A stretch of 64,000 bases of DNA, taken from contig CAMWLG010000009.1 in the NCBI GenBank assembly GCA_947175035.1, positions 1 to 64,000 on the forward strand. The letters are read 5' to 3'. Positions 5,634-35,229 of this stretch are shown here, piece after piece. This DNA is from an uncultured Lachnospiraceae bacterium (GTDB lineage: Bacteria; Bacillota; Clostridia; Lachnospirales; Lachnospiraceae). The notes beneath the pieces were generated by a model. It did no database searches, was not told the DNA's origin, and worked only from the letters and a program-made list of their open reading frames with translations. Positions within the stretch are counted from its first letter, which is position 1; each line of letters begins with the position of its first letter. Both the position numbers and the translations under genes were made by a program.

Positions 5634-8600
5634 CTATCTGAAATACTCCACTCCAGACTCAAATATCTTCATATCCTGCTCTCCATAGATATTCATTGCC
5701 ACGGCCTCGCCCCTTCTCTCGGAGTGCGCCATCTTGCCCAAACACCTGCCGTCAGGCGAGGTAATTCCCTCAATCGCACAATAGGAACCATTGATATTAA
5801 ATTCCTCGTCCATGCTCACATTGCCATCCGGGTCGGCATACTGCGTAGCCACCTGTCCATTGGCAAAGAGCCTCTCAATCCACTCCTTCGGAGCCACGAA
5901 ACGGCCCTCGCCATGGGAAGCGGGATTACAATAGGTCTCGCCAGGCTTCGCGCCCTGCAGCCAGGGAGATTTGTTGGAAACCACCTTGATATATGCCATC
6001 TTGGAGATATGGCGGTTGATGGTATTATAAGTAAGCGTGGGAGAATCCTCCTTTTGCCCCACAATCTCGCCATAAGGCACAAGCCCCAATTTGATCAATG
6101 CCTGGAAACCGTTGCAGATTCCCAAGGCCAAACCATCTCTCTCGTTTAACAGCTTCATGACCGCTTCCTTCAGTTTCTCGTTCTGGAATGCGGTGGCAAA
6201 AAATTTCGCGCTGCCGTCAGGCTCGTCGCCCGCCGAGAAGCCTCCGGGGAACATGATAATCTGTGCCTGTGCAATGGATTTTTCAAACTCCTCCACAGAC
6301 CCGCGGATATCCTCCGCCGTCAAATTCTTAAACACCCTCGTGATCACGTTTGCACCTGCATTCTCAAACGCCTTGGCAGAATCGTACTCGCAATTCGTGC
6401 CGGGGAATACCGGGATAAACACTGTGGGCTTGGCTATTTTGTGTTTGCAGACATATATATTGTCCGCCTTGTAACAGGTACTCGCCACCGCGTCTTTTCC
6501 CTTCACGGCCTTGGTGGGGAATACCTTCTCCAGCTTGGATGTCCATGCCTCCAACGCCTCGTCCATGGTAATTCTGACGTCACCGTACACAAAGTCAGGG
6601 TTCTCGGTCACTGTACCTACCACATGTCCCTTAAATGGCAGCTCTACCTCCCCCGGGCAGACCTCCACCAGAAGATCTCCCATCGCATTCTCAAACAACT
6701 GATCCACCGTGATCTCATCTGCAAGTCTGACACCCAGTCGATTGCCGAATGCCATCTTGGATAATGCTGCTGCCACACCTCTCGCGTCCAAAGCATAAGC
6801 GGAGACAATCTTACCCTCCTGTATCTGCTCATGAATGTAGTCGTACAGCTCCGCCACGTCATCATACATAGGGATGTCAAAATCATCCTTCTCAATCTGA
6901 TATCTCACCAACACATTTCCGGGTTTTTTCAGCTCCGGCGTGATAATATCGCCGCTCTTTGCCACGTCCACGGCAAAGGACACCAGTGTGGGAGGCACGT
7001 CAATCTCGTTAAAGGTGCCGGACATGCTGTCCTTGCCTCCTATGGAGGGCAGACCAAAGCCAATCTGTGCGTCATAAGCCCCCAGCAGCGCCGCAAAAGG
7101 CTGACTCCAACGATTGGGGTCACTGGTCATCCTGCGGAAATATTCTTGAAATGTAAAACGAATCTTCCGATAATCGCCGCCTGACGCCACAATCTTTGCC
7201 ATGGACTCCACCACCGCGTAAATTGCCCCATGATATGGACTCCATGAGGACAGATAGGGGTCGAAGCCATGTGCCATCATCGTCACGGTGTCCGTCCTGC
7301 CCTGCAGTACCGGAAGTTTGGCAATCATGGACTGGGTCTCGGTAAGCTGATATTTACCGCCATAGGGCATCAGCACGCTCCCCGCACCGATGGAGGAGTC
7401 AAACATCTCCACCAGCCCCTTCTGGGAGCAGACATTCAGGTCTTTCAACAGTGTGAGCCATGCCCCCTTCACATCGCCCTGTTCCAGCTTGTCGCCCACT
7501 GCAGGAACAGCCTGCTTTCTAAAATAATTATCCTCCTCAGAGGGAATATCCACTTTTACAGAAGTCTCCTGATGAGCCCCGTTGGTGTCAAGGAAGGCTC
7601 TCTTTAAATCCACGATTCTTTTGCCTCGCCAATTGAGCACCAGTCTGGGTTCTTCCGTGACCACAGCCACTTCCACGGCCTCCAGATTCTCCTCGGCGGC
7701 ATACCCCAAAAACTCCTGCACGTCCTTCGGGTCAACCACCACGGCCATGCGCTCCTGAGACTCGGAAATAGCAAGCTCCGTGCCATCCAGCCCCGCATAT
7801 TTCTTGGGCACCTTATCCAAATCCACCGTAAGGCCATCCGCCAACTCCCCGATGGCAACCGATACACCACCGGCGCCAAAGTCATTACACTTCTTGATCA
7901 GACGGCTGACCTCCGCCCGGCGAAACAATCTCTGAATCTTTCTCTCTGTGGGAGCATTTCCCTTCTGTACCTCCGCGCCACAGGTCTCGATGGACTGCTC
8001 TGTATGTACCTTGGAGGAACCCGTAGCCCCGCCGCATCCGTCACGGCCGGTACGTCCGCCCAGAAGGATAATGATATCTCCGGGGTCGGAAGTCTCTCTC
8101 TTAACATTTTTCCTGGGAGCGGCGCCCATCACGGCGCCAATCTCCATTCTCTTTGCCACATAATCAGGGTGATAAATCTCTTTCACAAAACCAGTTGCCA
8201 GACCAATCTGGTTGCCATAGGAGGAATAGCCGCTGGCAGCCCCCCGCACCAGTCTCTTCTGGGAAAGCTTCCCCTTCAAGGTCTCGGACACGGGAACCGT
8301 AGGATCCGCCGCCCCCGTCACACGCATCGCCTGATACACATAACCCCGTCCGGATAGGGGATCGCGAATCGCACCGCCCAGACAGGTTGCCGCGCCACCG
8401 AAGGGTTCAATCTCCGTAGGATGATTGTGTGTTTCATTTTTGAAAAACACCAACCACTCCTCCGTCTCCTTGTAATCGCCGTAATCCATCTCCACGGGAA
8501 CCACTACAGAGCAGGCATTAATCTCATCTGACTCCTCCATGTCGTCCAGCTTCCCATCCTTTTTTAACTTTCTCATAGCCATCAGAGCCAAATCCATCAG

Positions 8601-9419
8601 GCAGACAAATTTGTCATCGCGCCCCGCGAAAATCTCCGCCCTGGTATCCAGATAACTCTGGTAGGTGGTCTCAATCGGTGAGCGGAAATATCCCTCGCCA
8701 AACTCCACATCCTTCAGCTCTGTGGAGAAGGTGGTATGGCGGCAGTGGTCAGACCAATAGGTATCCAGCACCCGAATCTCCGTCATGGAGGGGTCTCTCT
8801 TCTCGTCGTCATGGAAATATTTTTGAATATGCAAAAAGTCCTTGAATGTCATTGCCAGCCCAAGAGAATCATAGAGCCTGCGCAGCTCCTCCTCCGGAAG
8901 ATTTGCAAAATCATCAAACACAGCCACATCCGCCGGCTCGTCAAACACAGTGATCAAAGTGTCCGGTTTGACCATGTCAGTCTCTCTGGAATCCACGGGA
9001 TTGATGCAGTATGCCTTCACTCGGGCAAACTCCTCCTCGCTGATATCCCCCTGAATCAGATAAGTGACAGCGGTCTTGATGACTGGATTTTCATTTTCAT
9101 CTAAAAATTGTACGCATTGCACAGCGGAATCCGCCCTCTGGTCAAACTGCCCCGGGAGAAACTCCACGGAGAACACATGCCCGTCCGCGGGAACCTCGAT
9201 ACTCTCCTCATATAAATCATCCACCGGCGGCTCTGAAAACACGGTTTTGCAAGCTCTTGCAAACACCTCGTCCGAAATATTCTCCACATCATACCGGATG
9301 AACACCCGAACACTTCTTGCCATGATCCCCAGATAATTCCTTAATTCCTCATGCAGCTCCTTCGCCTTTACCGCAAAGGGCTCCTTTTTCTCCACATAGA
9401 TACGCCTTACGTTTCCCAT
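5634..9419 (-). CDS. purL: Phosphoribosylformylglycinamidine synthase (single-chain, 1261 aa)
   Basis: FKNETHNHPTEIEPFGGAATCLGGAIRDPLSGRG, SIGGKDSMSGTF and glutaminase motif ALGICNGFQALIKLGLVPYG. Confidence 0.97.
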   Translation of the reverse strand: MGNVRRIYVEKKEPFAVKAKELHEELRNYLGIMARSVRVFIRYDVENISDEVFARACKTVFSEPPVDDLYEESIEVPADGHVFSVEFLPGQFDQRADSAVQCVQFLDENENPVIKTAVTYLIQGDISEEEFARVKAYCINPVDSRETDMVKPDTLITVFDEPADVAVFDDFANLPEEELRRLYDSLGLAMTFKDFLHIQKYFHDDEKRDPSMTEIRVLDTYWSDHCRHTTFSTELKDVEFGEGYFRSPIETTYQSYLDTRAEIFAGRDDKFVCLMDLALMAMRKLKKDGKLDDMEESDEINACSVVVPVEMDYGDYKETEEWLVFFKNETHNHPTEIEPFGGAATCLGGAIRDPLSGRGYVYQAMRVTGAADPTVPVSETLKGKLSQKRLVRGAASGYSSYGNQIGLATGFVKEIYHPDYVAKRMEIGAVMGAAPRKNVKRETSDPGDIIILLGGRTGRDGCGGATGSSKVHTEQSIETCGAEVQKGNAPTERKIQRLFRRAEVSRLIKKCNDFGAGGVSVAIGELADGLTVDLDKVPKKYAGLDGTELAISESQERMAVVVDPKDVQEFLGYAAEENLEAVEVAVVTEEPRLVLNWRGKRIVDLKRAFLDTNGAHQETSVKVDIPSEEDNYFRKQAVPAVGDKLEQGDVKGAWLTLLKDLNVCSQKGLVEMFDSSIGAGSVLMPYGGKYQLTETQSMIAKLPVLQGRTDTVTMMAHGFDPYLSSWSPYHGAIYAVVESMAKIVASGGDYRKIRFTFQEYFRRMTSDPNRWSQPFAALLGAYDAQIGFGLPSIGGKDSMSGTFNEIDVPPTLVSFAVDVAKSGDIITPELKKPGNVLVRYQIEKDDFDIPMYDDVAELYDYIHEQIQEGKIVSAYALDARGVAAALSKMAFGNRLGVRLADEITVDQLFENAMGDLLVEVCPGEVELPFKGHVVGTVTENPDFVYGDVRITMDEALEAWTSKLEKVFPTKAVKGKDAVASTCYKADNIYVCKHKIAKPTVFIPVFPGTNCEYDSAKAFENAGANVITRVFKNLTAEDIRGSVEEFEKSIAQAQIIMFPGGFSAGDEPDGSAKFFATAFQNEKLKEAVMKLLNERDGLALGICNGFQALIKLGLVPYGEIVGQKEDSPTLTYNTINRHISKMAYIKVVSNKSPWLQGAKPGETYCNPASHGEGRFVAPKEWIERLFANGQVATQYADPDGNVSMDEEFNINGSYCAIEGITSPDGRCLGKMAHSERRGEAVAMNIYGEQDMKIFESGVEYFR

Positions 9420-9452
9420 AGCTCTCCTGTTTCCTCCAACTTATTGACTGTA

Positions 9453-10037
9453 TTAGTCATCAGCTCCGATACCGCGCAAAATATAGAGAAGCTCCCTGTC
9501 AACCGTCTCGGCTGTGACACCTATGGTCTGGGCAGAGATCTTAAGCCCCTCCAACACGAACATAATGTTCCTTGCAGTCCCGGCGCAATCTTCACAAATA
9601 AATTCCCCATTCTCCGTTCCAGTCTCTATCAGTTTCTCGATCACCTTCACGGCGGAATCAAACTGCTTTTTCAGCACGTTGTCCTTTTTGGGCAGATTGT
9701 TTTCAAAATAGAACTCATAGATTGCCTGCGTCAATGTATCCTTTTTGCGCAGGATCTCCTTCTTCTGCTCCTTGAGAAAAAGCAAAAGAATATCCGCCGC
9801 GGTCGCATCCTCCGAGATACTTCCAGAGAACACATCATCCGCCTCCTCGCTCTCGAGCTTGAGCACCTCCATGAAAATCTGCTTCGTATTCTCGAAATAG
9901 AGATACAACCCACCCCGGCTGATATCGCATGCCTCCACAATATCCTTCATGGACACCTTCTTAAATCCCTTCTCCATGAAAACCTTTCTGGCTGTCTCCA
10001 CAATATAGCGCTTCTTTTGTACCGATTTATCACCCAT
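9453..10037 (-). CDS. TetR/AcrR family transcriptional regulator
   Basis: N-terminal HTH: IVETARKVFMEKGFKKVSMKDIVEACDISRGGLYLYFENT. Confidence 0.88.
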   Translation of the reverse strand: MGDKSVQKKRYIVETARKVFMEKGFKKVSMKDIVEACDISRGGLYLYFENTKQIFMEVLKLESEEADDVFSGSISEDATAADILLLFLKEQKKEILRKKDTLTQAIYEFYFENNLPKKDNVLKKQFDSAVKVIEKLIETGTENGEFICEDCAGTARNIMFVLEGLKISAQTIGVTAETVDRELLYILRGIGADD

Positions 10038-10070
10038 AGTCTCCAATACCTTTCTCTGCCGTATAAATGT

Positions 10071-10385
10071 TTACACCCCTATCGGCTTGTCCCAAAACTC
10101 AATGATATCACACATTTTCTTGATCACCTGATAAAATATCTGCTCTTTCACCGCCTCGCTCCAGTATGTACCCTTGGTCTGTCCACCCAGCACATACTTG
10201 GACAAGATACCACACAGCAGATCCCACTCCTTGATCCCCGCATTTTGAATCATCTTGCGCTCATCCTCGTGGGTTTGTATGCGGTTGCGGGTGTAGATAT
10301 AACGATAGTTGCGATCCATAAAGGAGGTCTTCTTCGCCTCCTTCACAAAGCTTAGCAATGTGCTCTCATAGACCGGAAAACTCAT
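10071..10385 (-). CDS. Small conserved-looking protein (DUF6508-like, uncertain), C-terminal part of a possibly split gene
   Basis: MSFPVYESTLLSFVKEAKKTSFMDRNYRYIYTRNRIQTHEDERKM...; start overlaps the upstream ORF stop as TAATG. Confidence 0.6.
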   Translation of the reverse strand: MSFPVYESTLLSFVKEAKKTSFMDRNYRYIYTRNRIQTHEDERKMIQNAGIKEWDLLCGILSKYVLGGQTKGTYWSEAVKEQIFYQVIKKMCDIIEFWDKPIGV

Positions 10386-10537
10386 TACTGCCCACCCACA
10401 TCTTCCCCGCTGTAATTCCTGCTGCCGTTGCTGGTTCCCGCATTTTTCTCCAGCCATGGCAGATAGCGCAAAAGCGGCATAAGCTCTTGTTTGTACTTCG
10501 CCAACTGTTGTTGGCGAAATTCTGTCTCTTGTTCCAT
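10385..10537 (-). CDS. 50-aa ORF upstream of and overlapping the 10071..10385 ORF
   Basis: GGAGGAG RBS then ATG; MEQETEFRQQQLAKYKQELMPLLRYLPWLEKNAGTSNGSRNYSGEDVGGQ*. Confidence 0.5.
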   Translation of the reverse strand: MEQETEFRQQQLAKYKQELMPLLRYLPWLEKNAGTSNGSRNYSGEDVGGQ

Positions 10538-10712
10538 ATGACTCCTCCCAAATACACCCTTTCACCAAAACTGACACATATGTATTTTTATTTTAGCACA
10601 TTTTTATCAAAAGTACAGTAGAAAATTTATATCACTTTGTAGTATACTATATACAAGGGGCGAAAAACCCACTGAACGAAAAGCCACCGAAGTGGCGGAA
10701 TAAGAGGAAAAT

Positions 10713-12968
10713 ATGGCTGGAATAACATTAGAAAAAGGGAAAGCAATCTATACGTACGGGCAGCCCATGACCGCCCTGCATCTCATTGCGAGCGGAAAAG
10801 TGCGTGTAGATTACCCTGGTGGTTCTTATCAATTGGGCAAGGGAGGCGTCATTGGAATCTGCGAGATATGCTCCGAGGTTCACTTGCTAAGCTACACTAC
10901 GTTGGAAAACACCACACTTTTCACCTATCCCCTGTCAAGCGTGAATGTATTGAACGATCTGTTACAGCGCAATGCGGACGTGGCAAGATTTTTCCTGCTC
11001 TCCGCCTGCAGTCAGATTAACATCCTGATGAATCGCTGTTCCGTGTCTGAGATCACCTGCAGCGACCTGTATCACGGACTGGTTGACGACTACGAGAAAT
11101 ACAGCTCCCTCTGCGAACGATACCGCATCACGCCAAGACAATTGGACGGCATGAAGGAACTGACTGCCTACTTGGAGACAGAAGCGGAGGAGCCGTGGCT
11201 GAATGGCTTTTATCTGGGGCTTACCCATATTTATTCCGGGGAGCATTTCAAGGATTTTATCCAGGAGCCCTCAGTGTCCCTTGGCATCCTTCAGCGCGGC
11301 AGCATGGATTTTCAACAGGCATGGACGCAGTTGGATGAGCAATTCCGCTATCAACAGCAGATTTCCGATTTCTATTTTAACGAGACAGGCAATGATCTGT
11401 TTGAATTCTATGCTTCTTTGTATCATAAGCTTGACCCGGGCGACGAGGAAACTTCCGCTCTGTTAGACGATATCAGAAGGATGGCAGAACAGTTCAAGGG
11501 CAAGATGGCAATCTCTGACGAACAGTTGGCAAGCCGTATGCAGCAATTTGACAACAAGCCCAGCCGGACAGAGAGCAAACATGAGGACAACTCGACGCTT
11601 CCCCCGGAATTAGTCGGATCGCTGGATACAATTCTGGAATTTGCCGGAAGCAATCTGGAGATTTCCGATGCGTTCCGCAAACATGTGCACGACTATAGAA
11701 TGCTCTCTGACAAAATCTCCATGGAGGACAGCGCCTGCGCCCTGCGAAGACATCTCACCAATGAATTCTATGTGCTTTACACCGCTATTTTTGAGCAGAC
11801 CCTGCATACAAAGGATATCCCTCTGGCTGTGTGGATGTTCTTGTACTTTGGCTATGTTGACGAGGAATTGGCGGGCCTGGACAATGCCATTACCCTTTAC
11901 AATATTGCATCTAATATTACAGACACCGGTTCCCTCGGCCTCTATACCTTTTATCATTGGCTGATGGCTATTTTCGAGGGCAAAAAGGAGCCCAGCCGAA
12001 ATGAATTCGACCAGGATTACACGGATTTCATACACAAACAAAAATTAAACGGCAATGTCACCGAGAAAGATCTCATGACCCTCGAGAGCAACAGCATGGC
12101 AAAGGTAAATTATGAGCTGCAGAATATGTTCCCCTCCGTGAACAAGATCACCTACGGGCGTATCACTACCTTCTGTCCGCTCTTTACCGCCCAAAGCGCC
12201 TTGAAAAATCTCGACTCCACCTATGTGACCGCATCCAAGGCCGCCAAGGTTCTGGAACAGATCCGCAGCGTGGACTATTCCGCATTCTACAGGCCCGGGT
12301 TGGATATGGAGCATATGGATGTCATGGGCAAGATAGAGATTCACACGGAATGCCCGCCCGACATTATCCTGCTGCCCAACGCCGGTATCCGCGGCGCTCT
12401 ATGGCAGGAGATTGAGGGAAAGAAGCGCAACACCCCCGGAAGAATGTGTCTTTCCATCTTCCATATGGAAGATTTGACCAATTCCATACTGCGCATGACA
12501 GGAGAGTTTCGCTGGGAGCTGTGCAAGCGTATTCAGGGAAGCCGCTGGAACGATATCAGCGAGAGTTCACTCACCAGCGAATATTTTGACTATGCCCAGT
12601 TCTACAAGAAGAATCACGACTTAAGCGCCGATGCCAAGGAGCGTGTCCGCATAGCGCTCATACAGGCGAAGAACAGCTTCAAGGAAATGTTCGTGCGGGA
12701 TTACATACAGTGGATTTTGTACGAGGGCAACGGGTCACCCAGATTGAATAAAGTGGCTCGAAAGATATTCTTTACTTACTGTCCCTTCTCTGCTGACATC
12801 TGCGCCAAGCTGGACAGCAATCCTCTCTATTCGGAGATTCTGTCCCGCCACAGACTGCGCAGCGCCCAGAAACGACATCAGCTGGAAATGCTGGCACAGA
12901 AACTCCGGAATTCAAGGACTCCCATTCCAGACACGCTGGAACAGGAGCTTGAATACTTCAGTTTGTAA
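10713..12968 (+). CDS. Cyclic nucleotide-binding (Crp-like) domain protein, 751 aa, C-terminal ~600 aa unassigned
   Basis: N-terminus LEKGKAIYTYGQPMTALHLIASGKVRVDYPGGSYQLGKGGVIG is CNBD-like. Confidence 0.7.
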   Translation: MAGITLEKGKAIYTYGQPMTALHLIASGKVRVDYPGGSYQLGKGGVIGICEICSEVHLLSYTTLENTTLFTYPLSSVNVLNDLLQRNADVARFFLLSACSQINILMNRCSVSEITCSDLYHGLVDDYEKYSSLCERYRITPRQLDGMKELTAYLETEAEEPWLNGFYLGLTHIYSGEHFKDFIQEPSVSLGILQRGSMDFQQAWTQLDEQFRYQQQISDFYFNETGNDLFEFYASLYHKLDPGDEETSALLDDIRRMAEQFKGKMAISDEQLASRMQQFDNKPSRTESKHEDNSTLPPELVGSLDTILEFAGSNLEISDAFRKHVHDYRMLSDKISMEDSACALRRHLTNEFYVLYTAIFEQTLHTKDIPLAVWMFLYFGYVDEELAGLDNAITLYNIASNITDTGSLGLYTFYHWLMAIFEGKKEPSRNEFDQDYTDFIHKQKLNGNVTEKDLMTLESNSMAKVNYELQNMFPSVNKITYGRITTFCPLFTAQSALKNLDSTYVTASKAAKVLEQIRSVDYSAFYRPGLDMEHMDVMGKIEIHTECPPDIILLPNAGIRGALWQEIEGKKRNTPGRMCLSIFHMEDLTNSILRMTGEFRWELCKRIQGSRWNDISESSLTSEYFDYAQFYKKNHDLSADAKERVRIALIQAKNSFKEMFVRDYIQWILYEGNGSPRLNKVARKIFFTYCPFSADICAKLDSNPLYSEILSRHRLRSAQKRHQLEMLAQKLRNSRTPIPDTLEQELEYFSL

Positions 12969-23298: not shown

Positions 23299-24888
23299 TT
23301 ATATTTGGTCATCATCCACGTCGATAAACTGGAATTCAAACTCGTCATCATTGATAAAATTCTTTGCTCTCCATTTCTCTTTCCGCTGAGGCTGGGAGGC
23401 TGTATTCTCCTGCGTCTGAATCTCCTGTTCATATTCAGGCATCTGTCCTCCTGCATAATCCTGACGGGACTGCATCTGCATTTCTGCGGAAGAATCATTT
23501 ATCGGGTGAGGTGCACCATTGCCTGAACCCGCTGGCCTTTGCCCTGCCGGACGCTGCTGGCTGCCTGAACCTGCCGGTCTCTGCCCTGCCGGACGCTGCT
23601 GGCTCCCGGAACCCGCCGGTCTTTGCCCTGCCGGGCGCTGCTCCCCTGAACCTGCCGGTCTCTGTCCCGTCGGACGCTGCTGGCTCCCGGATCCTGCCGG
23701 TCTCTGTCCCGCCGGACGCTGCTGGCTCCCGGATCCTGTCGGTCTCTGCCCTGCCGGGCGCTGCTGGCCGCCTGAGCCGGATGGTCTCTGCCCTGCAGGT
23801 CGCCTTCCGCCTTGCGTCCCCGCCTGCTGCCTCTCCCTTTGACCGGTTCCGCTTCTATCAATCGGTCTGTCTGCTGTTCTGCGGTGCATAGTCTCTTTCT
23901 CGACTTCATCGAAATAAGCAGCATCTGACATATCCTTTAACTTAAAGATCATCAGTGTAAGAATCGTCGCCAACACAATCAGCAGCATCACCAATACGAT
24001 TCGCCAAATCTGCAAACTTTTATTGCTGTCGTTGAGGCTCTCCAAAGTCTCTTTATTCTTTTCCACCGTGGCAAACATATTATCAATATCCCAGCTTTTG
24101 TTCGAGGTATTGTCAATCAGATGCCATTTGCCATCCTCGTAATAAGTATCCCAGTCCTTGAACACATTGGGTTCCGGCTCCTCTGCCCCCGTCTGCTCCG
24201 AATCCCCCGGAGCCTCCGCCGATGTACCTGCAGGAACCAACTCCCCGCTCACTGATATATACCTTGCCTGAATAAATCCTTTTACCTCAGAACCTCCGGA
24301 AGTATAGCTGATCTGTAACCAATCCATACTGTCTGTTCCCACAGCCTGACCGGTGACAGTCAGCTTGGTTCCGCTCTGGGCAGTGTTGACAATACGGCTG
24401 GTGGTGGAAGCATTCTGACGAACGCGCACAGGCGAAGTGCTTGACACGCTGCCTTCCACAGGCTCCACCGGAGTAACCTGCACCACCGTCTCGTCGGGGG
24501 TAGACGTGGTAGGAGTCGAGGAAGTAGCGGAAGTGGTAGAACTCACAATCGTGGAAGGAGTGCTTCCGTCCGTGATCGTCATCAGATCGGAACGGATATA
24601 TCCGGTGATCGTGCCATCCGTGACTTGATACCATATCATTCCGTCACTCCCCGTAATCTGCCCTTTGACATTCACCACCGCATCCTGTAACGCGCTTCCC
24701 ACAGAATCGCTGCTGGTGCTGGGTTCCTTCCGAATCTTCGCGCTGCTCGCCGTCACCTTTCCGCTGCTGTCCGCATGTCCGACAATCGCCAAACCATCCG
24801 CGGTAAGTCCCACCAACAGCGCCGTCAACAACACCAGAGTCCCAAGCAATGCCCTACATCTGTCATGCCATCTGCCAATTTTACTCAT
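23299..24888 (-). CDS. SH3-domain (x2) single-TM protein with repetitive Pro/Gln/Gly/Arg-rich C-terminal tail
   Basis: VTASSAKIRKEPSTSSDSVGSALQDAVVNVKG and SPVRVRQNASTTSRIVNTAQSGTKLTVTGQ; TM IWRIVLVMLLIVLATILTLMIF. Confidence 0.8.
   Translation of the reverse strand: MSKIGRWHDRCRALLGTLVLLTALLVGLTADGLAIVGHADSSGKVTASSAKIRKEPSTSSDSVGSALQDAVVNVKGQITGSDGMIWYQVTDGTITGYIRSDLMTITDGSTPSTIVSSTTSATSSTPTTSTPDETVVQVTPVEPVEGSVSSTSPVRVRQNASTTSRIVNTAQSGTKLTVTGQAVGTDSMDWLQISYTSGGSEVKGFIQARYISVSGELVPAGTSAEAPGDSEQTGAEEPEPNVFKDWDTYYEDGKWHLIDNTSNKSWDIDNMFATVEKNKETLESLNDSNKSLQIWRIVLVMLLIVLATILTLMIFKLKDMSDAAYFDEVEKETMHRRTADRPIDRSGTGQRERQQAGTQGGRRPAGQRPSGSGGQQRPAGQRPTGSGSQQRPAGQRPAGSGSQQRPTGQRPAGSGEQRPAGQRPAGSGSQQRPAGQRPAGSGSQQRPAGQRPAGSGNGAPHPINDSSAEMQMQSRQDYAGGQMPEYEQEIQTQENTASQPQRKEKWRAKNFINDDEFEFQFIDVDDDQI
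23511..23802 (-). repeat. About seven tandem ~42-bp coding repeats (RPAGQRPAGSGSQQ)
   Basis: Units RPAGQRPSGSGGQQ, RPAGQRPTGSGSQQ, RPAGQRPAGSGSQQ, RPTGQRPAGSGEQ, RPAGQRPAGSGSQQ (x2), RPAGQRPAGSGNGA. Confidence 0.9.
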
Positions 24889-29186: not shown

Positions 29187-29603
29187 TTAAATTTTTGTAT
29201 TAATCTTTTTTACAATCGTCAAACAATTTTTCCCCTCTATATATTCATACGACACTTTATCCATCGTCTTTCTCACCAGATAGATGCCTAAGCCTCCGGG
29301 AGGACGCTCCCCGGCGGGCAGTGTCACATCGGGTTCTTCCCGCTCCAATGGATTGTAAGGGATGCCATTGTCCACAAAAATCATTCCCACCTGGGAATCG
29401 TCCAGTCCGCATCGAATCTCCACGTTCCGTGCCCCGCTGTGAATACATAGATTGGAATACAATTCATCCACTGCCACCAAGAGCTTTGCCCTGTCCCCCT
29501 CCGCCACGTTCCCTTCTATTAGATAGCGCTCCACCGCTTCCAGCACTTGGGGCATACTGTCAATGTTTGGCTTGCCCGCATAAATCTCTACCGTATTGCC
29601 CAT
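29187..29603 (-). CDS. RsbW-like ATP-binding (HATPase_c) anti-sigma/serine kinase-type protein
   Basis: KLLVAVDELYSNLCIHSGARNVEIRCGLDDSQVGMIFVDNGIPYNPLERE ... GGLGIYLVRKTMDKVSYEYIEGKNCLTIVKK. Confidence 0.9.
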   Translation of the reverse strand: MGNTVEIYAGKPNIDSMPQVLEAVERYLIEGNVAEGDRAKLLVAVDELYSNLCIHSGARNVEIRCGLDDSQVGMIFVDNGIPYNPLEREEPDVTLPAGERPPGGLGIYLVRKTMDKVSYEYIEGKNCLTIVKKINTKI

Positions 29604-29622
29604 ATCCTCCCCCCGTCCATAC

Positions 29623-29922
29623 TCATTCAATTGTCAATATCACATCAAACCCCGTAATCTTGAATACCTCAAGTACCTCCGGCCTGACATTTTGAATCTT
29701 CATATTACCATTCTTTGCCTGCATTTTCTTGGTTGCCGAGAGCAGCACGCGAAGCCCCGCCGACGAAACATACTCCAATTGCTCCATATCTATACTCAAA
29801 TCTGACACATCTGTCAACTCATTGTCTATCACCGCCTGCAGCTCGGGCGCCGTCGTGGTCTCCAATCTGCCGGATGGCTTGACAATCAATGTTGTCCCGT
29901 TTACTTCCCTTTCTATTTTCAT
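29623..29922 (-). CDS. STAS domain anti-sigma factor antagonist
   Basis: MKIEREVNGTTLIVKPSGRLETTTAPELQAVIDNELTDVSDLSIDMEQLEYVSSAGLRVLLSATKKM. Confidence 0.92.
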   Translation of the reverse strand: MKIEREVNGTTLIVKPSGRLETTTAPELQAVIDNELTDVSDLSIDMEQLEYVSSAGLRVLLSATKKMQAKNGNMKIQNVRPEVLEVFKITGFDVILTIE

Positions 29923-29964
29923 AATTCCTCCAATCCACCCGCCTCCCGGGCTGTCTGTTACCAA

Positions 29965-30246
29965 TTACAGACTGTCTCCGTCCTCCCATGCGGGTTTTCT
30001 CACAAACCCGATATGATAAGTCACCTTCTCCATCGTCAATTCATGTTCCCCGATCATATAGCGTCCAATCGTGATATCTTTTCCGAGGATGATCCCCTTC
30101 GGATAGTCATTCAAACAGCGGTTTAAAAGCGCTATCTGCTGTTCTTTTGACTGATCCGAAAGGGGATTGTTCGGATTGACGCTGCCCACGGGGACAAGCT
30201 TGACATAATGGATATCTGTCAATTCTGTCTTCTCCCGTTTATCCAT
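29965..30246 (-). CDS. Hypothetical 93-aa protein of the DUF2589 cassette
   Basis: ORF in a tight co-directional array between DUF2589-B and STAS. Confidence 0.7.
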   Translation of the reverse strand: MDKREKTELTDIHYVKLVPVGSVNPNNPLSDQSKEQQIALLNRCLNDYPKGIILGKDITIGRYMIGEHELTMEKVTYHIGFVRKPAWEDGDSL

Positions 30247-30274
30247 ACTCTCTCCGTCTCCTCATGCCCTGCCG

Positions 30275-31360
30275 TCAGCAGGACAAAGCCGTGCTGTACT
30301 CTTCCCTCTTGTCATAGAGTTCCTTTTCCACTGCATTCACCTTCATCTGCGCCACCACCGCACTGTTCTGCGCGCTTACCATAGCGCTATACTTCGCCCC
30401 GGTTGTGGTGACATAGGAATCCACGGAATTATCATCCTTCAATCCCTGCAATGCAAAATCCTGAGAAAGTGCGGACGCACCGGAAGCGCTTTCTGTACTT
30501 TCGGCGGAGTCCGCAAGCATGGAGATGACATCTCCCACCTGATTCTGGAAATCAGCCCAGCTCTGCATCAGCGAATCATATTCCTGCTGATTCTCCTCGG
30601 TGGCGCTGTCCATCAGGGACGCAACCTTCGTGCTGTACAGATTCTGCTGCGACGCGGCACACTTCTTGAATACCATCAGGCGATCTTCCAGATTACTCTT
30701 CGCCGCGTTCAGTCTGGCCTCGATGCCGGATATCTCGCCGCGCAGTTTCTTGAGTTTCTCCGCCTTTGCGCGCGCTGAATTTGATAGTTCCTGACCGTCT
30801 GCACCCTTCAAAGTGCTGCCCACCAGCTCAGGCGCCACGTTTGCCGCCATCATGTCGAGCACTCTCGCCAGACCTTCCGGCGTGCCGTGGTTGGTCGCTC
30901 TCACATCCACATGGTACTTGGCCGAATTGTCGGAACTTCTGGTGTTCTCCTGATGTACACTGACACTTCCACTGATGCTGACCTTGATAGGGCCGATTCC
31001 CAGAGAGCCGGTCAGGCTTGCGCCGACATCCAGCGACTGCTGGGACTTCTCGCTCTGTTTCACCTCCATATCAAAGAGGATGTTTACCTCATCCACCTGG
31101 ATATTCGGTATCGGAACGATTGCCAGCATAGGTACGGCCACCTTCATCTCGTCGAGATTGCTGGTGCCGTCCTCATTTATGCTGCGCTTCTGGTAAGCAA
31201 ATGCGACTGTTCGCAGTTTTCCATTGCCGTCAAAGCCCACACGGTTGATAAAATCCGCCGTGGAATTGGCCAGCATAGTGCTTGCATCCGCTACTGCAGT
31301 AAGGGGGCCGCCGATCAACTGCCCCATATCCAATCCCGCAAATTGTTCTGCAACTGCCAT
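30275..31360 (-). CDS. DUF2589-like protein B, 361 aa with coiled-coil-like C-terminal extension
   Basis: QLIGGPLTAVADASTMLANSTADFINRVGF; VPMLAIVPIPNIQVDEVNILFDMEVK; shares motif with 31602..32468. Confidence 0.8.
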   Translation of the reverse strand: MAVAEQFAGLDMGQLIGGPLTAVADASTMLANSTADFINRVGFDGNGKLRTVAFAYQKRSINEDGTSNLDEMKVAVPMLAIVPIPNIQVDEVNILFDMEVKQSEKSQQSLDVGASLTGSLGIGPIKVSISGSVSVHQENTRSSDNSAKYHVDVRATNHGTPEGLARVLDMMAANVAPELVGSTLKGADGQELSNSARAKAEKLKKLRGEISGIEARLNAAKSNLEDRLMVFKKCAASQQNLYSTKVASLMDSATEENQQEYDSLMQSWADFQNQVGDVISMLADSAESTESASGASALSQDFALQGLKDDNSVDSYVTTTGAKYSAMVSAQNSAVVAQMKVNAVEKELYDKREEYSTALSC

Positions 31361-31378
31361 AATGCTTCACCTCCTTTC

Positions 31379-31627
31379 CTAATATGATTTATTCTTAAAG
31401 CTTGCCAATTTCCTGGCAAACGCTCTAAGCAAAGTAAATAACCTGCTATGTCTTCGAACGGGCGGCTCCACCTTAGTCAAGGTGATCTTTTCCACCCAGA
31501 GCACATCACCTGTCAATTCGCTCTCCATAAGCAGGCGGTAATTCAGCTCATTCTTTAGACGAGTGACATCCGCCTCCACCAGTTGTTGTATCGTGGACGG
31601 ATCACTTGTAGTCATTCTCAAGTCCAT
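31379..31627 (-). CDS. Hypothetical 82-aa basic protein overlapping the 3' end of DUF2589-A
   Basis: ORF overlaps 31602..32468 by 26 bp in an otherwise contiguous operon. Confidence 0.65.
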   Translation of the reverse strand: MDLRMTTSDPSTIQQLVEADVTRLKNELNYRLLMESELTGDVLWVEKITLTKVEPPVRRHSRLFTLLRAFARKLASFKNKSY

Positions 31628-32468
31628 ACAGAATCTCCTTGTTGATAATCTGCTCCTGATATTCCATAATGCGGTTGATAATATTGGACTGTGCCATCAG
31701 ATATCTCTCCTTGTCAAAGTCATAGGTATCCTCCTCAAAGGCATCCATACTAATCTGATGCAGCCGCTCCTGTTCGGCAATCATATCTGCGATTCTCTGG
31801 TGCAGCTGTTTGAGCTTGCCAATCTTGACCCGAAGCCGCTTGGTCTCCTGTATGAGAGCCTTCTGTTCCTCATTGCCAAGGTCGCCGTTGTCGACAACAG
31901 GCGTGGTATCCAACTTCTTCGTCACCTGATTGGTGCTTAAGCTGTCCGTGAGCCGCATGATCCCCTCTGTCGCCGGAATGGAGGAAACCTTTAGTTTATA
32001 AGAAACCTTGGGCAAAAAGTCACTATCCCGCTGAGAAGGGGAACAGATGCGGGCATTGATCTTGGCTTCTCCCGTCTCCTGATTCGTCACCGCCTTCACT
32101 TCCGTGGAAAAGTCAATCTCCGCCTTCTCCACATTCAGATTGGTCATGGGTACAATCGATAACAGCGGCACCTGTAATTGCAGATTGTCAACGCTATAGC
32201 CCTCCTCCGCCTCCGCCCGCACCTGGTCATAGGCAATATTGATATTGTTCAGGTGAATGATTTCCTCCTGTCCGTTCTGTTTGGAGGTTCCCATGCTCCT
32301 GATCGCCTCCACAATATGCTCCCGCAGCTGTTGATTGGATTTTGCCAATGCGTGCAGCGGTGCAAATACCAAATCATCCAACAGGATAAAATCATTATCC
32401 ACGACACCTTCGCCTTTTACCTCTTCCCCTGACAGATTATCTTCCCTTTTGTCCATTCCGTATGGCAT
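31602..32468 (-). CDS. DUF2589-like protein A
   Basis: LDDLVFAPLHALAKSNQQLREHIVEAIRSMG; VPLLSIVPMTNLNVEKAEIDFSTEVK. Confidence 0.78.
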   Translation of the reverse strand: MPYGMDKREDNLSGEEVKGEGVVDNDFILLDDLVFAPLHALAKSNQQLREHIVEAIRSMGTSKQNGQEEIIHLNNINIAYDQVRAEAEEGYSVDNLQLQVPLLSIVPMTNLNVEKAEIDFSTEVKAVTNQETGEAKINARICSPSQRDSDFLPKVSYKLKVSSIPATEGIMRLTDSLSTNQVTKKLDTTPVVDNGDLGNEEQKALIQETKRLRVKIGKLKQLHQRIADMIAEQERLHQISMDAFEEDTYDFDKERYLMAQSNIINRIMEYQEQIINKEILYGLENDYK

Positions 32469-32503
32469 ATGAGCCTCCTTATATTGCTGTTTTTACATGA
32501 TAC

Positions 32504-33181
32504 TTAACCCAAGAATAATGCTCTTTCCTCTTCTCTTCTTCGAACCAGCCCTGCCAGCACCTTGCCGCCACCCTTGTTGTAGTCCAATATTTTCTCGGCA
32601 ATCTCCGCGGCACTCCTGCCCGTCACCAGCTTTTGAAGGCTCCCCGCCCCACAGTTGTAACAAAAAGAGGTCAGGGCATCAAATTGATTCTGGTTGGGCT
32701 GAAATGTCAATTTTCCATTTTGTATGCATTGGTTGACACTGTCTGCGTACTTTGCGAGATCCTTCTGCAAGAGCTCCTTTGCCGCCTCCTTGGAAGGCAG
32801 GGTATCCCCTGGATTGACGCCCGCGGTATGCCCATATCCGATTGTCCACACACCCGCCGGACATTTGTAGGCCTCCAGACGGCATCCCTCGTATTTTGCC
32901 ACCAATTCCACACCCTTGGCAGATATCTGCATCTTGGTTCCGGGTGGGGGAGTTCCTTGGGCAATGGAAACCGCGTCCTTGCCCACAACCTTCAAATACT
33001 TTACATTGACTGGACTGTTGATGCACCTTGTTCTGTCGGTATTTTCATTGATCACTGCCCTGTCGCCGCTCACCGACTTTACAATCCACCTGTCATTCTT
33101 TACCCAGTCCGGCATCTCTTTTCCCGTGTAGTACACAGCACTTTGGGACAATGTTACAATATCTCCTTCTCTGATCTCCAT
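32504..33181 (-). CDS. GH24 phage-type lysozyme with N-terminal SH3-like segment, no signal peptide
   Basis: LVAKYEGCRLEAYKCPAGVWTIGYGHTAGVNPGD ... NQFDALTSFCYNCGAGSL. Confidence 0.92.
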   Translation of the reverse strand: MEIREGDIVTLSQSAVYYTGKEMPDWVKNDRWIVKSVSGDRAVINENTDRTRCINSPVNVKYLKVVGKDAVSIAQGTPPPGTKMQISAKGVELVAKYEGCRLEAYKCPAGVWTIGYGHTAGVNPGDTLPSKEAAKELLQKDLAKYADSVNQCIQNGKLTFQPNQNQFDALTSFCYNCGAGSLQKLVTGRSAAEIAEKILDYNKGGGKVLAGLVRRREEERALFLG

Positions 33182-33190
33182 AAGCCCCTC

Positions 33191-33769
33191 CTACAACAGA
33201 CCGCCTTGACCGCCCATGTTGCCCAGGCCGCCCATCAGTCCCTTTATCATATCCGCATCCGCTTTCACATAGGACATGCCCAGACTCTCCACACACCCGT
33301 GTTTGTCAGTTATTAAGGCAGTTCCGACAAAACCCGCGAACGCAGCACCCTCGGGGATGGAGATGGAGAACGCCTTACCGCCATATGAACCAAAGGGTCC
33401 GTATTTCTTGCCATTGACAGTCTCGATCACCAATTTGCTGATTACCCGGTTGTCATAGTAATTTGCGTCAGACACTCCGGAGATGCTCTTGATATTGTCC
33501 CCGTCGTCCAACATGATCTTGTGTTCCGTACCGCCCTTGGGATTGCCATACACTGTTCCACTGCCGTCCGCATAAATGACGTATATCGCATCTACAATAC
33601 CGCCGCTGCGAACGGCCACTCCCCTTATCTCCTTATTGGAGACCTGGTCATCCTGTAAAGTGTCAAATTTTTTCTTTGTGGAAGAACCTGCTATCTGTGT
33701 GTACTCCGCCTTAATTCCTCCCAACATGTCACCAATAGCCCCCATTTTGTCCATATTATTCTTTCCCAT
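33191..33769 (-). CDS. Jacalin-like lectin domain protein
   Basis: FDTLQDDQVSNKEIRGVAVRSGGIVDAIYVIYADGSGTVYGNPKGGTEHKIMLDDGDNIKSISG ... YGPFGSYGGKAFSISIPEGAAFAGFVGTA. Confidence 0.72.
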   Translation of the reverse strand: MGKNNMDKMGAIGDMLGGIKAEYTQIAGSSTKKKFDTLQDDQVSNKEIRGVAVRSGGIVDAIYVIYADGSGTVYGNPKGGTEHKIMLDDGDNIKSISGVSDANYYDNRVISKLVIETVNGKKYGPFGSYGGKAFSISIPEGAAFAGFVGTALITDKHGCVESLGMSYVKADADMIKGLMGGLGNMGGQGGLL

Positions 33770-33808
33770 AATCCTATACTCCTTTACTCCTTTCTGAAGT
33801 GTTTCCAT

Positions 33809-34390
33809 TTATTGAGCTGAATCCTTTTCCATGGCCGCTGCAACCGCCTGACGAAAACCGTCCATCGTATAGCCGCATTGCATTCCGTTCCACAGGTGAT
33901 CCGGGTCAGCATGTCCCGACGCCATCCCGCGGTTATGTCCCTCCTTGTGGCTGATAATCACTCCATCCTGCAATGGATTCAGGTGATATTGCCTGCAGAG
34001 CCATGCAAACAATTCCACTGCGGTGTCATAGGTGCGCTTCACCACCGCCATCGCTGCCTCCCTGTCCGAGCAGGTAAATCCGGCGCCGCCTGTATACTTG
34101 ATACATCCGGGCTCACACATCTCCACGCCAATATGGGTATTGTTGCCCGAACCACCACAATGGGGCGCACGATAATCCCACGGCAGGGTTTGAAAGACCA
34201 CCCCACTGTTGCCATCGATGAAGCCGTGAATACAGGCACGAGTGTAATCAGGTTTGTCCCACTGCTTGATAAACACCTGTGCATTGGGCTGCGGACACCC
34301 CACGCTGTGAAGCATCAGTCCTTTGACTTCAATCTTTTTCCCTTTTGTGTAATAGGGATTTTGTGTTAAAAAACTTTGTACAATTTCCAT
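33809..34390 (-). CDS. N-acetylmuramoyl-L-alanine amidase (Amidase_2/PGRP type), no signal peptide
   Basis: KGLMLHSVGCPQPNAQVFIKQWDKPDYTRACIHGFIDGNSGVVFQTLPWDYRAPHCGGSGNNTHIGVEMCEP. Confidence 0.9.
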   Translation of the reverse strand: MEIVQSFLTQNPYYTKGKKIEVKGLMLHSVGCPQPNAQVFIKQWDKPDYTRACIHGFIDGNSGVVFQTLPWDYRAPHCGGSGNNTHIGVEMCEPGCIKYTGGAGFTCSDREAAMAVVKRTYDTAVELFAWLCRQYHLNPLQDGVIISHKEGHNRGMASGHADPDHLWNGMQCGYTMDGFRQAVAAAMEKDSAQ

Positions 34391-34418
34391 GTACTTTCCT
34401 CCTCTTTATTTTTTTATT

Positions 34419-34487
34419 GAAACGCGTAGCGGTTTCAATTTGGAACGCGTAGCAGTTTCAATTTGGAACGCAACGCGGTTTCAATCG
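34419..34487. repeat. Three tandem 23-bp hairpin-forming repeats between lytTR and the amidase
   Basis: GAAACGCGTAGCGGTTTCAATTT / GGAACGCGTAGCAGTTTCAATTT / GGAACGCAACGCGGTTTCAATCG. Confidence 0.9.
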
Positions 34488-35152
34488 ATTTCCTTCGGTG
34501 TGTTCATCAGACGCTCTTTGACCGCCATATACTTTTTCACCGGAATCTGAAGCTGCTCTCCATTGTCTAATTCCACAAAACAACGGGCAACCTTATACAC
34601 ATGAGCTGTATTGATAATAAAGCCCCTATGTATCCTGACGAAGGAATCCGACAACGACTTTTCCCAAGAACTTAGATTACCAACGGTTTCAATTACCTCG
34701 TTTCGGCAATGCCATCTCGTGTGATTATGACCCGCTTCCAGATAGAACACATCCATTTCATCCACCAGGTAACAATGTTCTCTTGCATCCCGCAACTCAT
34801 ATTTCTTCCCTGACAGCTTCTCCGAGATATGAAGCAATGCCACCTTGATCCCTTGTTCCCCACAGGTCAACATCACGGAAGCTACACACATTTTTTCTTT
34901 TTTCCGGAAGCTTTCCGTGGTTGTCAACAATCGAAAGGTTCCCACAACCGTCACATACTGCCCTGACTGTAACGCGACCTTGTACCGGTTATGCACTATT
35001 TGATACTTCTGCCTCTCACGCCTGCTATTCTCATTCGGTCGCAGAACATTGTTCCCCAACACAAAACAAGTCTCCGTGTAGAATTTCTTTTCCTGCTGAT
35101 AATAAAGCTCAATCCCCCTCTTTGCCGATTCAATCATCTTTTCCTGCCGCAT
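34481..35152 (-). CDS. LytTR DNA-binding regulator with non-receiver N-terminal domain
   Basis: C-terminal VDEMDVFYLEAGHNHTRWHCRNEVIETVGNLSSWEKSLSDSFVRIHRGFIINTAHVYKV. Confidence 0.87.
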   Translation of the reverse strand: MRQEKMIESAKRGIELYYQQEKKFYTETCFVLGNNVLRPNENSRRERQKYQIVHNRYKVALQSGQYVTVVGTFRLLTTTESFRKKEKMCVASVMLTCGEQGIKVALLHISEKLSGKKYELRDAREHCYLVDEMDVFYLEAGHNHTRWHCRNEVIETVGNLSSWEKSLSDSFVRIHRGFIINTAHVYKVARCFVELDNGEQLQIPVKKYMAVKERLMNTPKEID

Positions 35153-35200
35153 TTAATATCTCCTCTATTTGGCATTTGCTTTTTCTGTCGTTCTTTGTCA

Positions 35201-35229
35201 AATATAGTGAAATAATATTAATGTCGCAA
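35201..35229 (-). promoter_or_regulatory. Candidate promoter of the lytTR cassette
   Basis: TTGCGA (35224-35229), 17-nt spacer, TATATT (35201-35206). Confidence 0.55.

Follow-up and report, generated by a model that had tools for sequence, protein, structure and literature searches.

A recurring DUF2589 and endolysin gene cassette of Lachnospiraceae as a candidate system for controlled lysis and release

What might a bacterium do with a compact block of ten genes in which peptidoglycan hydrolases stand next to bacterial regulators and to DUF2589, a family with almost no literature? The block in question lies in a 64,000-nucleotide stretch of an uncultured Lachnospiraceae bacterium (GCA_947175035.1, contig CAMWLG010000009.1, positions 1 to 64,000; hereafter the window), where ten minus-strand open reading frames (ORFs) span 29187–35152 with gaps of 0–110 bp or short overlaps. 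The ORF list and Pfam bear out the families and the order given in a first-pass annotation made from the sequence alone (LytTR, Amidase_2, Jacalin, Phage_lysozyme, DUF2589 twice, STAS and HATPase_c_2); its span of 29187–35229 is right at the start, and coding ends at 35152, not 35229. The explanation that we regard as best, with a probability of about 0.42, is that the cassette is a controlled, tightly repressed lysis-and-release system, spreading horizontally as a chromosomal element, in which the two DUF2589 proteins and a protein of 93 amino acids (aa) would form new machinery.

The cassette is more than a chance cluster, as its gene order recurs in other genomes. With DUF2589-B as query we found 61 loci, mostly in Lachnospiraceae or related genera and some in Treponema, Chitinispirillales and Anaeroplasmataceae. 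In the 35 loci with full flanks, to which the gene-order counts refer, an Amidase_2/GH24 gene lies directly upstream of DUF2589-A in 27, and DUF2589-B is immediately followed by the 93-aa gene in 30, with STAS present in 27 and SpoIIE in 29; these counts are not independent events, because the loci share ancestry. The typical order is hydrolase, DUF2589-A, small protein, DUF2589-B, 93-aa protein, STAS, often a GNAT-like protein and then a dCache-HAMP-SpoIIE-HATPase sensor. Since the cassette families co-occur in other genomes, and no prophage module was found, the first-pass proposal of an undescribed recurring system is not refuted. The neighbourhood analysis that it had suggested shows amidase and lysozyme recurring beside DUF2589. 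Endolysin, DUF2589-A, small protein, DUF2589-B, 93-aa protein and STAS, with a SpoIIE sensor phosphatase in the relatives, make up the constant part, whereas jacalin (3/35) and LytTR (6/35) are optional. The distribution of DUF2589 is rare and patchy: carriers are 6 of 37 genomes in the window's genus (the window genome included), 9 in a 348-genome sample of the family and 2 in a 399-genome sample of the phylum. In the window the cassette is flanked by purD/N/M/E on one side and by an SDR gene, recX, recA and a 4Fe-4S protein gene on the other. We considered purE as a shared insertion site and rejected it, as purE-purM is kept in relatives and none has the cassette beside it; a clean empty-site comparison at purE is unworkable because cassette-bearing relatives carry the cassette at other places.

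How would such a cassette be controlled? In 27 loci, two of which (L018 and L081) are identical in sequence, inverted repeats AWAATACGATATTWT/AWAATATCGTATTWT bound 136–484 bp upstream of the first cassette gene, and a gene for a Xer-type tyrosine recombinase (Phage_integrase 1.4e-23; XerA/XerD-like but below NCBI cut-offs) is found within 6 kb upstream in 18 of the 27. A promoter with at most two mismatches to TTGACA-N17-TATAAT, its -10 element inside the repeat, faces away from the cassette in all 27 loci and toward it in none of them (shuffles reach this criterion in 97/5400), and in-silico inversion makes it face the cassette in 27/27. A terminator-like hairpin faces the cassette in 14/27 and away from it in 6/27 (shuffles, 15/1080). 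Only one of the two orientations of the segment was found, all 27 loci being OFF, and this uniformity is in keeping with an ON state that is costly. In those genus members for which both elements were searched, recombinase orthologues (E<1e-90) are confined to G013, G015 and G017, all of which carry the cassette and the inverted-repeat pair; single recombination sites are at background level in genus members that lack the cassette, and only close inverted pairs are informative. G015 has three inverted-repeat pairs, with the recombinase beside a non-cassette pair and in trans to the cassette. At that genome's locus G015:C10 (L132), 6853–9032, the recombinase adjoins an inverted-repeat segment with an uncharacterised 237-aa gene after it, and at G015:C3 (L131), 8302–12012, the operon headed by an inverted-repeat promoter segment encodes coiled-coil proteins of 562 and 279 aa together with a 394-aa protein that carries a HEIGH metalloprotease-like motif.

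The probable transcriptional head of the window cassette is the LytTR gene (34481–35152), which encodes a 223-aa regulator with no receiver domain (PF04397 8.7e-15, residues 128–215). The minus-strand leader between it and the amidase gene (34391–34480) holds two direct copies of GCGTTCCAAATTGAAAC, a possible operator; these are the only two matches in the window, against 0.04 expected. LytTR also heads L013, L024, L031, L041, L059, L062 and L066, none of which has an inverted-repeat switch or a recombinase, so it looks like an alternative head in place of the switch. The apparent invertible promoter that relatives use in its stead lay beyond the reach of the first-pass annotation. As in the invertons of gut bacteria, the promoter in relatives is enclosed by inverted repeats, with a tyrosine recombinase beside it; what differs is the gene set downstream, an endolysin/DUF2589 cassette. 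Neither a lysozyme, amidase or endolysin nor DUF2589 or SpoIIE is mentioned in the main text of one inverton paper (PMC11892184).

A further layer of control is suggested by the end of the cassette. The STAS anti-sigma-antagonist-like protein (29623–29964, likely starting at an internal ATG near 29922; PF01740 9.6e-18, TIGR00377 above cut-off) and the stand-alone RsbW/SpoIIAB-like HATPase kinase (29187–29630, 147 aa, likely starting at an internal ATG near 29603; PF13581, HATPase_c_2, 4e-18) have, at the level of motifs and not of activity, what a partner switch needs: the phospho-site motif YVSSAG in the former and DELYSN in the latter. In most relatives the kinase is the C-terminus of a dCache-HAMP-SpoIIE protein (the fusion is shown for L018), and this sensor architecture suggests an extracellular small-molecule ligand. 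No PP2C phosphatase is encoded within the window cassette. A candidate lies in trans at G000:C19 of the window genome: a SpoIIE phosphatase that shares 64% identity across 1,109 aa with that of cassette L022, which like the window also has LytTR and a stand-alone kinase. This protein (locus L152, 2894–7131) carries the phosphatase behind a dicarboxylate/glutamate symporter-like N-terminus, and a solute-binding protein is encoded ahead of it; such a joining of transporter and phosphatase in one receptor is unusual. Beside the core in L061 there is a Sigma70_r4 match, though a weak one that falls below the cut-off. Comparable partner switches are SpoIIE/SpoIIAA/SpoIIAB and SypE, which acts on SypA in Vibrio fischeri (PMC3610818). 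The relatives share with these a STAS protein, the phospho-serine motif and a single polypeptide that unites RsbW-type kinase with PP2C phosphatase, but they differ in their dCache extracellular sensor and in the linkage to endolysins, and the window cassette differs in having no sigma factor.

The enzymes at the other end are of known kinds. In the window Amidase_2 (33809–34390, 193 aa; Pfam 4e-17) and GH24 lysozyme (32504–33181, 225 aa; PF00959 4.9e-38 over residues 96–219, with about 80–95 N-terminal residues outside the domain) are separate genes with the jacalin gene between them; both keep intact catalytic motifs, LMLHSVG...HADPDHLW in the amidase and E-x8-C-x5-T in the lysozyme. Relatives usually have one fused Amidase_2 and GH24 protein (in L079, 368 aa with domains at residues 21–150 and 239–362), and both catalytic motifs are present in 36 of 61 hydrolase ORFs. 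None of the ten window proteins has a signal-peptide-like N-terminus or a transmembrane-grade segment by a hydropathy scan, which is not a dedicated signal-peptide predictor (maximal 19-residue value 1.36); the earlier statements that both hydrolases lack a signal peptide and that no holin-like transmembrane ORF is present agree with this. Endolysins lacking a signal peptide wait for a membrane breach or act after lysis. The jacalin-like lectin (33191–33808, 205 aa; PF01419 4.2e-16), also found in L019, L050 and L066, is all that could speak for the envelope- or glycan-targeting role proposed in the first-pass annotation.

Outside Lachnospiraceae the endolysins that accompany DUF2589 come from unrelated families: Peptidase_M15_4 adjoins DUF2589 in Chitinispirillales (L067), Amidase_2 does so on the opposite strand in Treponema (L070) and GH24 in Burkholderia (L076), a PF11860 muramidase lies about 2 kb downstream on a deltaproteobacterial plasmid (L074), and a 4-kb gut scaffold labelled Bacteriophage (L148) has DUF2589 genes together with a muramidase-like protein. 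From these arrangements hydrolases appear to have been recruited independently beside DUF2589. In a spirochaete sample DUF2589 occurs in 14 of 298 genomes, mostly in tandem. As endolysin families vary across phyla and some loci have no hydrolase, what stays constant is the DUF2589/93-aa core, with the hydrolase as a frequent partner.

What, then, is this core? The first-pass annotation knew of no function for DUF2589, and the family is essentially unstudied: we found a single incidental mention by name among 5.39 million papers, in a transcriptome note, and no mention of its Pfam or InterPro identifiers in the literature searched. DUF2589-A (31602–32468, 288 aa; PF11655 2.1e-17) is paralogous to DUF2589-B (30275–31360, 361 aa; PF11655 6.2e-39), with an hhalign probability of 98.8, and lacks the S/G-rich hairpin of the latter. 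Between them lies an 82-aa protein (31379–31627), which overlaps DUF2589-A by 26 bp and has a small counterpart at the same position in most relatives; neither it nor the 93-aa protein (29965–30246) has a Pfam match. The AlphaFold2 model of DUF2589-B (predicted local distance difference test, pLDDT, 76; predicted TM-score, pTM, 0.56) has a helix at the N-terminus, beta strands, and a long coiled coil at the C-terminus; a low-confidence stretch at about 103–145 includes an S/G-rich alternating segment at about 103–137. Residues of the S/G/A/T/N group make up 51% of this stretch on average, and its hydropathy alternates with p<0.05 in 32 of 55 sequences, the window's own value being p = 0.08; it would fit a membrane hairpin but also ordinary beta strands. 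The structure prediction that had been proposed earlier yielded a model of DUF2589-B but no significant PDB fold match (best E 0.047, TM-score about 0.12). A likeness to the beta-pore toxins lysenin, aerolysin and the PA pore was looked at and is not used as evidence (E >= 0.047, TM-score about 0.12). In a viral library Foldseek gave DUF2589-B one match, to an unnamed protein (E 4.4e-8).

The 93-aa protein is modelled as beta-alpha-beta-beta (pLDDT 85), for which Foldseek found nothing significant. Searching the PDB by sequence gave no match. The family is well conserved, with 57–83% identity to the window protein across 40 aligned sequences that include Treponema and Chitinispirillales; in relatives its gene directly adjoins DUF2589, and there is at most one copy per genome or plasmid among those searched. 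Its plasmid matches, one deltaproteobacterial and two from Vibrio, lie beside DUF2589. On the Vibrio plasmid pVDT1 (L146; 1–944 and 6359–8132) the DUF2589/93-aa pair is a few kb from an annotated TcdA/TcdB-type glycosyltransferase domain protein and an ABC peptidase-transporter. Because no part of the DUF2589/93-aa core was found to belong to a described system, we rate it as new in kind, the surrounding enzymes and regulators being of known kinds.

Other genes accompany the core in individual loci. C39-like cysteine peptidase genes directly follow it at L045:11638–12093 and L043:11450–11929 (L043 below cut-off), where other loci have STAS, and are possible cargo. A GH3-type acyl-adenylating enzyme is encoded between the STAS and SpoIIE genes of L043 (3400–5046), and L089 (4896–6497) has within its core a protein with DUF4135, a domain familiar from lanthionine synthetases. 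L086 (2012–5725) is a DUF2589 locus with DUF261 and a ricin-B lectin, and DUF261 also follows the core in L054.

We propose that the inverted-repeat segment flips to turn rare cells ON, with LytTR gating the window cassette equivalently. ON cells would build up cytoplasmic DUF2589/93-aa assemblies and endolysin, kept inactive via the STAS phospho-switch, until the sensor phosphatase (in trans in the window) lifts the brake. DUF2589-B may then breach the membrane in the holin's stead, or form a cytoplasmic product that is freed by lysis, and the endolysin would open the wall; the optional lectin may be cargo or a targeting part. Release by lysis, one of the two routes considered at first pass, is our preferred reading. 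The pairing of DUF2589 with endolysins, the lack of a transmembrane protein, the heavy restraint and the uniformly OFF switch favour lysis and release. The recurring system and its predicted switch are well supported by the genome comparisons; lysis and the function of DUF2589 are what we infer. A more specific version, in which DUF2589-A/B and the 93-aa protein are a membrane-breaching machine that replaces the holin in a flip-switch-controlled suicidal release of gut Lachnospiraceae, with relatives in other phyla, is rather doubtful.

Several points weigh against lysis and release. Lysis, inversion and DUF2589 activity are predictions; 27/27 OFF would also be seen if the switch flipped seldom or not at all, and the window's own cassette has no recombinase or inverted repeats. 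The window cassette encodes neither a sigma factor nor any other evident target for the STAS switch. Membrane breaching by DUF2589 is speculative, because the fold searches lack a significant PDB match. In the spirochaete loci that we read as Brachyspira-like, two genes of DUF2589 type are accompanied by those for a 113-aa protein and the 93-aa protein, with no hydrolase, and the Vibrio plasmids carry DUF2589 and the 93-aa protein with no hydrolase nearby; because the pair also occurs in this way, lysis is not its core function everywhere.

Could the cassette instead be a domesticated phage lysis module, with captured endolysins kept for autolysis and DUF2589 and the rest as incidental neighbours? 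Amidase_2 and GH24 do match phage endolysin families, as in holin-endolysin phage modules, and the Bacteriophage-labelled scaffold pairs DUF2589 with a muramidase-like protein. However, the cassette has no holin or phage genes and has bacterial regulatory genes and cargo-like lectins. As the first-pass annotation had also noted, phage structural genes are lacking: the flanks are pur genes and recA, and no head or tail family is among the 25 listed of 33 PHROG families matched by flank proteins of 8 loci. In the phage record collection that served as our virus sample (50,697 records) DUF2589-B matches one record and the 93-aa protein none. Gene order is conserved together with a bacterial partner-switch module, endolysin families change between phyla while DUF2589 stays, and the core is conserved in spirochaetes with no adjacent lysin. 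A phage origin accounts for the enzymes only, and we consider it improbable as an explanation of the whole. The spirochaete loci would suit a structural or stress system inside the cell, with DUF2589 proteins making up cytoplasmic assemblies and the hydrolases acting in wall turnover: the locus is stable without a hydrolase in Brachyspira-like genomes, and the proteins are soluble with a coiled coil. This reading, similarly improbable, leaves the recurrent recruitment of unrelated endolysins and the predicted ON/OFF switch unexplained.

Trans-envelope machines are in general accompanied by dedicated hydrolases, and DUF2589-A/B and the 93-aa protein could build a membrane-linked, non-lytic export or envelope apparatus for which the hydrolases open peptidoglycan locally. 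The coiled coil and alternating beta segment of the DUF2589-B model and the varying lectins and proteases of the locus are in keeping with this; yet the hydrolases have no signal peptides, the window cassette encodes no exporter or transmembrane protein and the uniform OFF orientation suggests a costlier output, so that such an apparatus seems unlikely. Least probable is anti-phage abortive infection (Abi), in which infection triggers endolysin-mediated suicide. The patchy distribution within the genus and the differing chromosomal places of the cassette would suit a defence system, but PADLOC gave no match for nine cassette proteins (LytTR not among them) or the L018 sensor phosphatase, and the L018 sensor points to an extracellular small molecule. 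To our knowledge flip-switch control is not typical of Abi systems, which also counts against it.

If lysis and release is the correct reading, the nearest described case in its proposed working would be the type 10 secretion system (T10SS) in soldier cells of Yersinia entomophaga. Its holin/endolysin/spanin cassette (YenLC), which has a neighbouring regulator, is expressed in a subset of cells, empties them and releases signal-less proteins by lysis (PMC10847048). Both are chromosomal non-prophage endolysin cassettes with an adjacent regulator, and the relatives' predicted switch is compatible with a T10SS-style lysing subpopulation, release from a subset being only inferred for the DUF2589 cassette. 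The window cassette is nonetheless not a T10SS member, because there is no holin; it has no spanin either, and two DUF2589 proteins and the 93-aa protein form its core. Control would also differ, with promoter inversion or LytTR plus the STAS phospho-switch. Elsewhere in the window, an SH3-domain protein at 23299–24888 has a long repetitive tail of the RPAGSGSQQ type.

DUF2589 is a family of several bacterial phyla and an archaeon, and the endolysins, phospho-switch and apparent invertible promoter to which it is tied offer a first testable idea of its role. The closely spaced inverted-repeat pair is specific enough to be searched for in existing long-read and metagenomic data. If ON cells do lyse, gut bacteria would here be setting altruistic or weaponised lysis by inverting a promoter, and would do so with no known holin.

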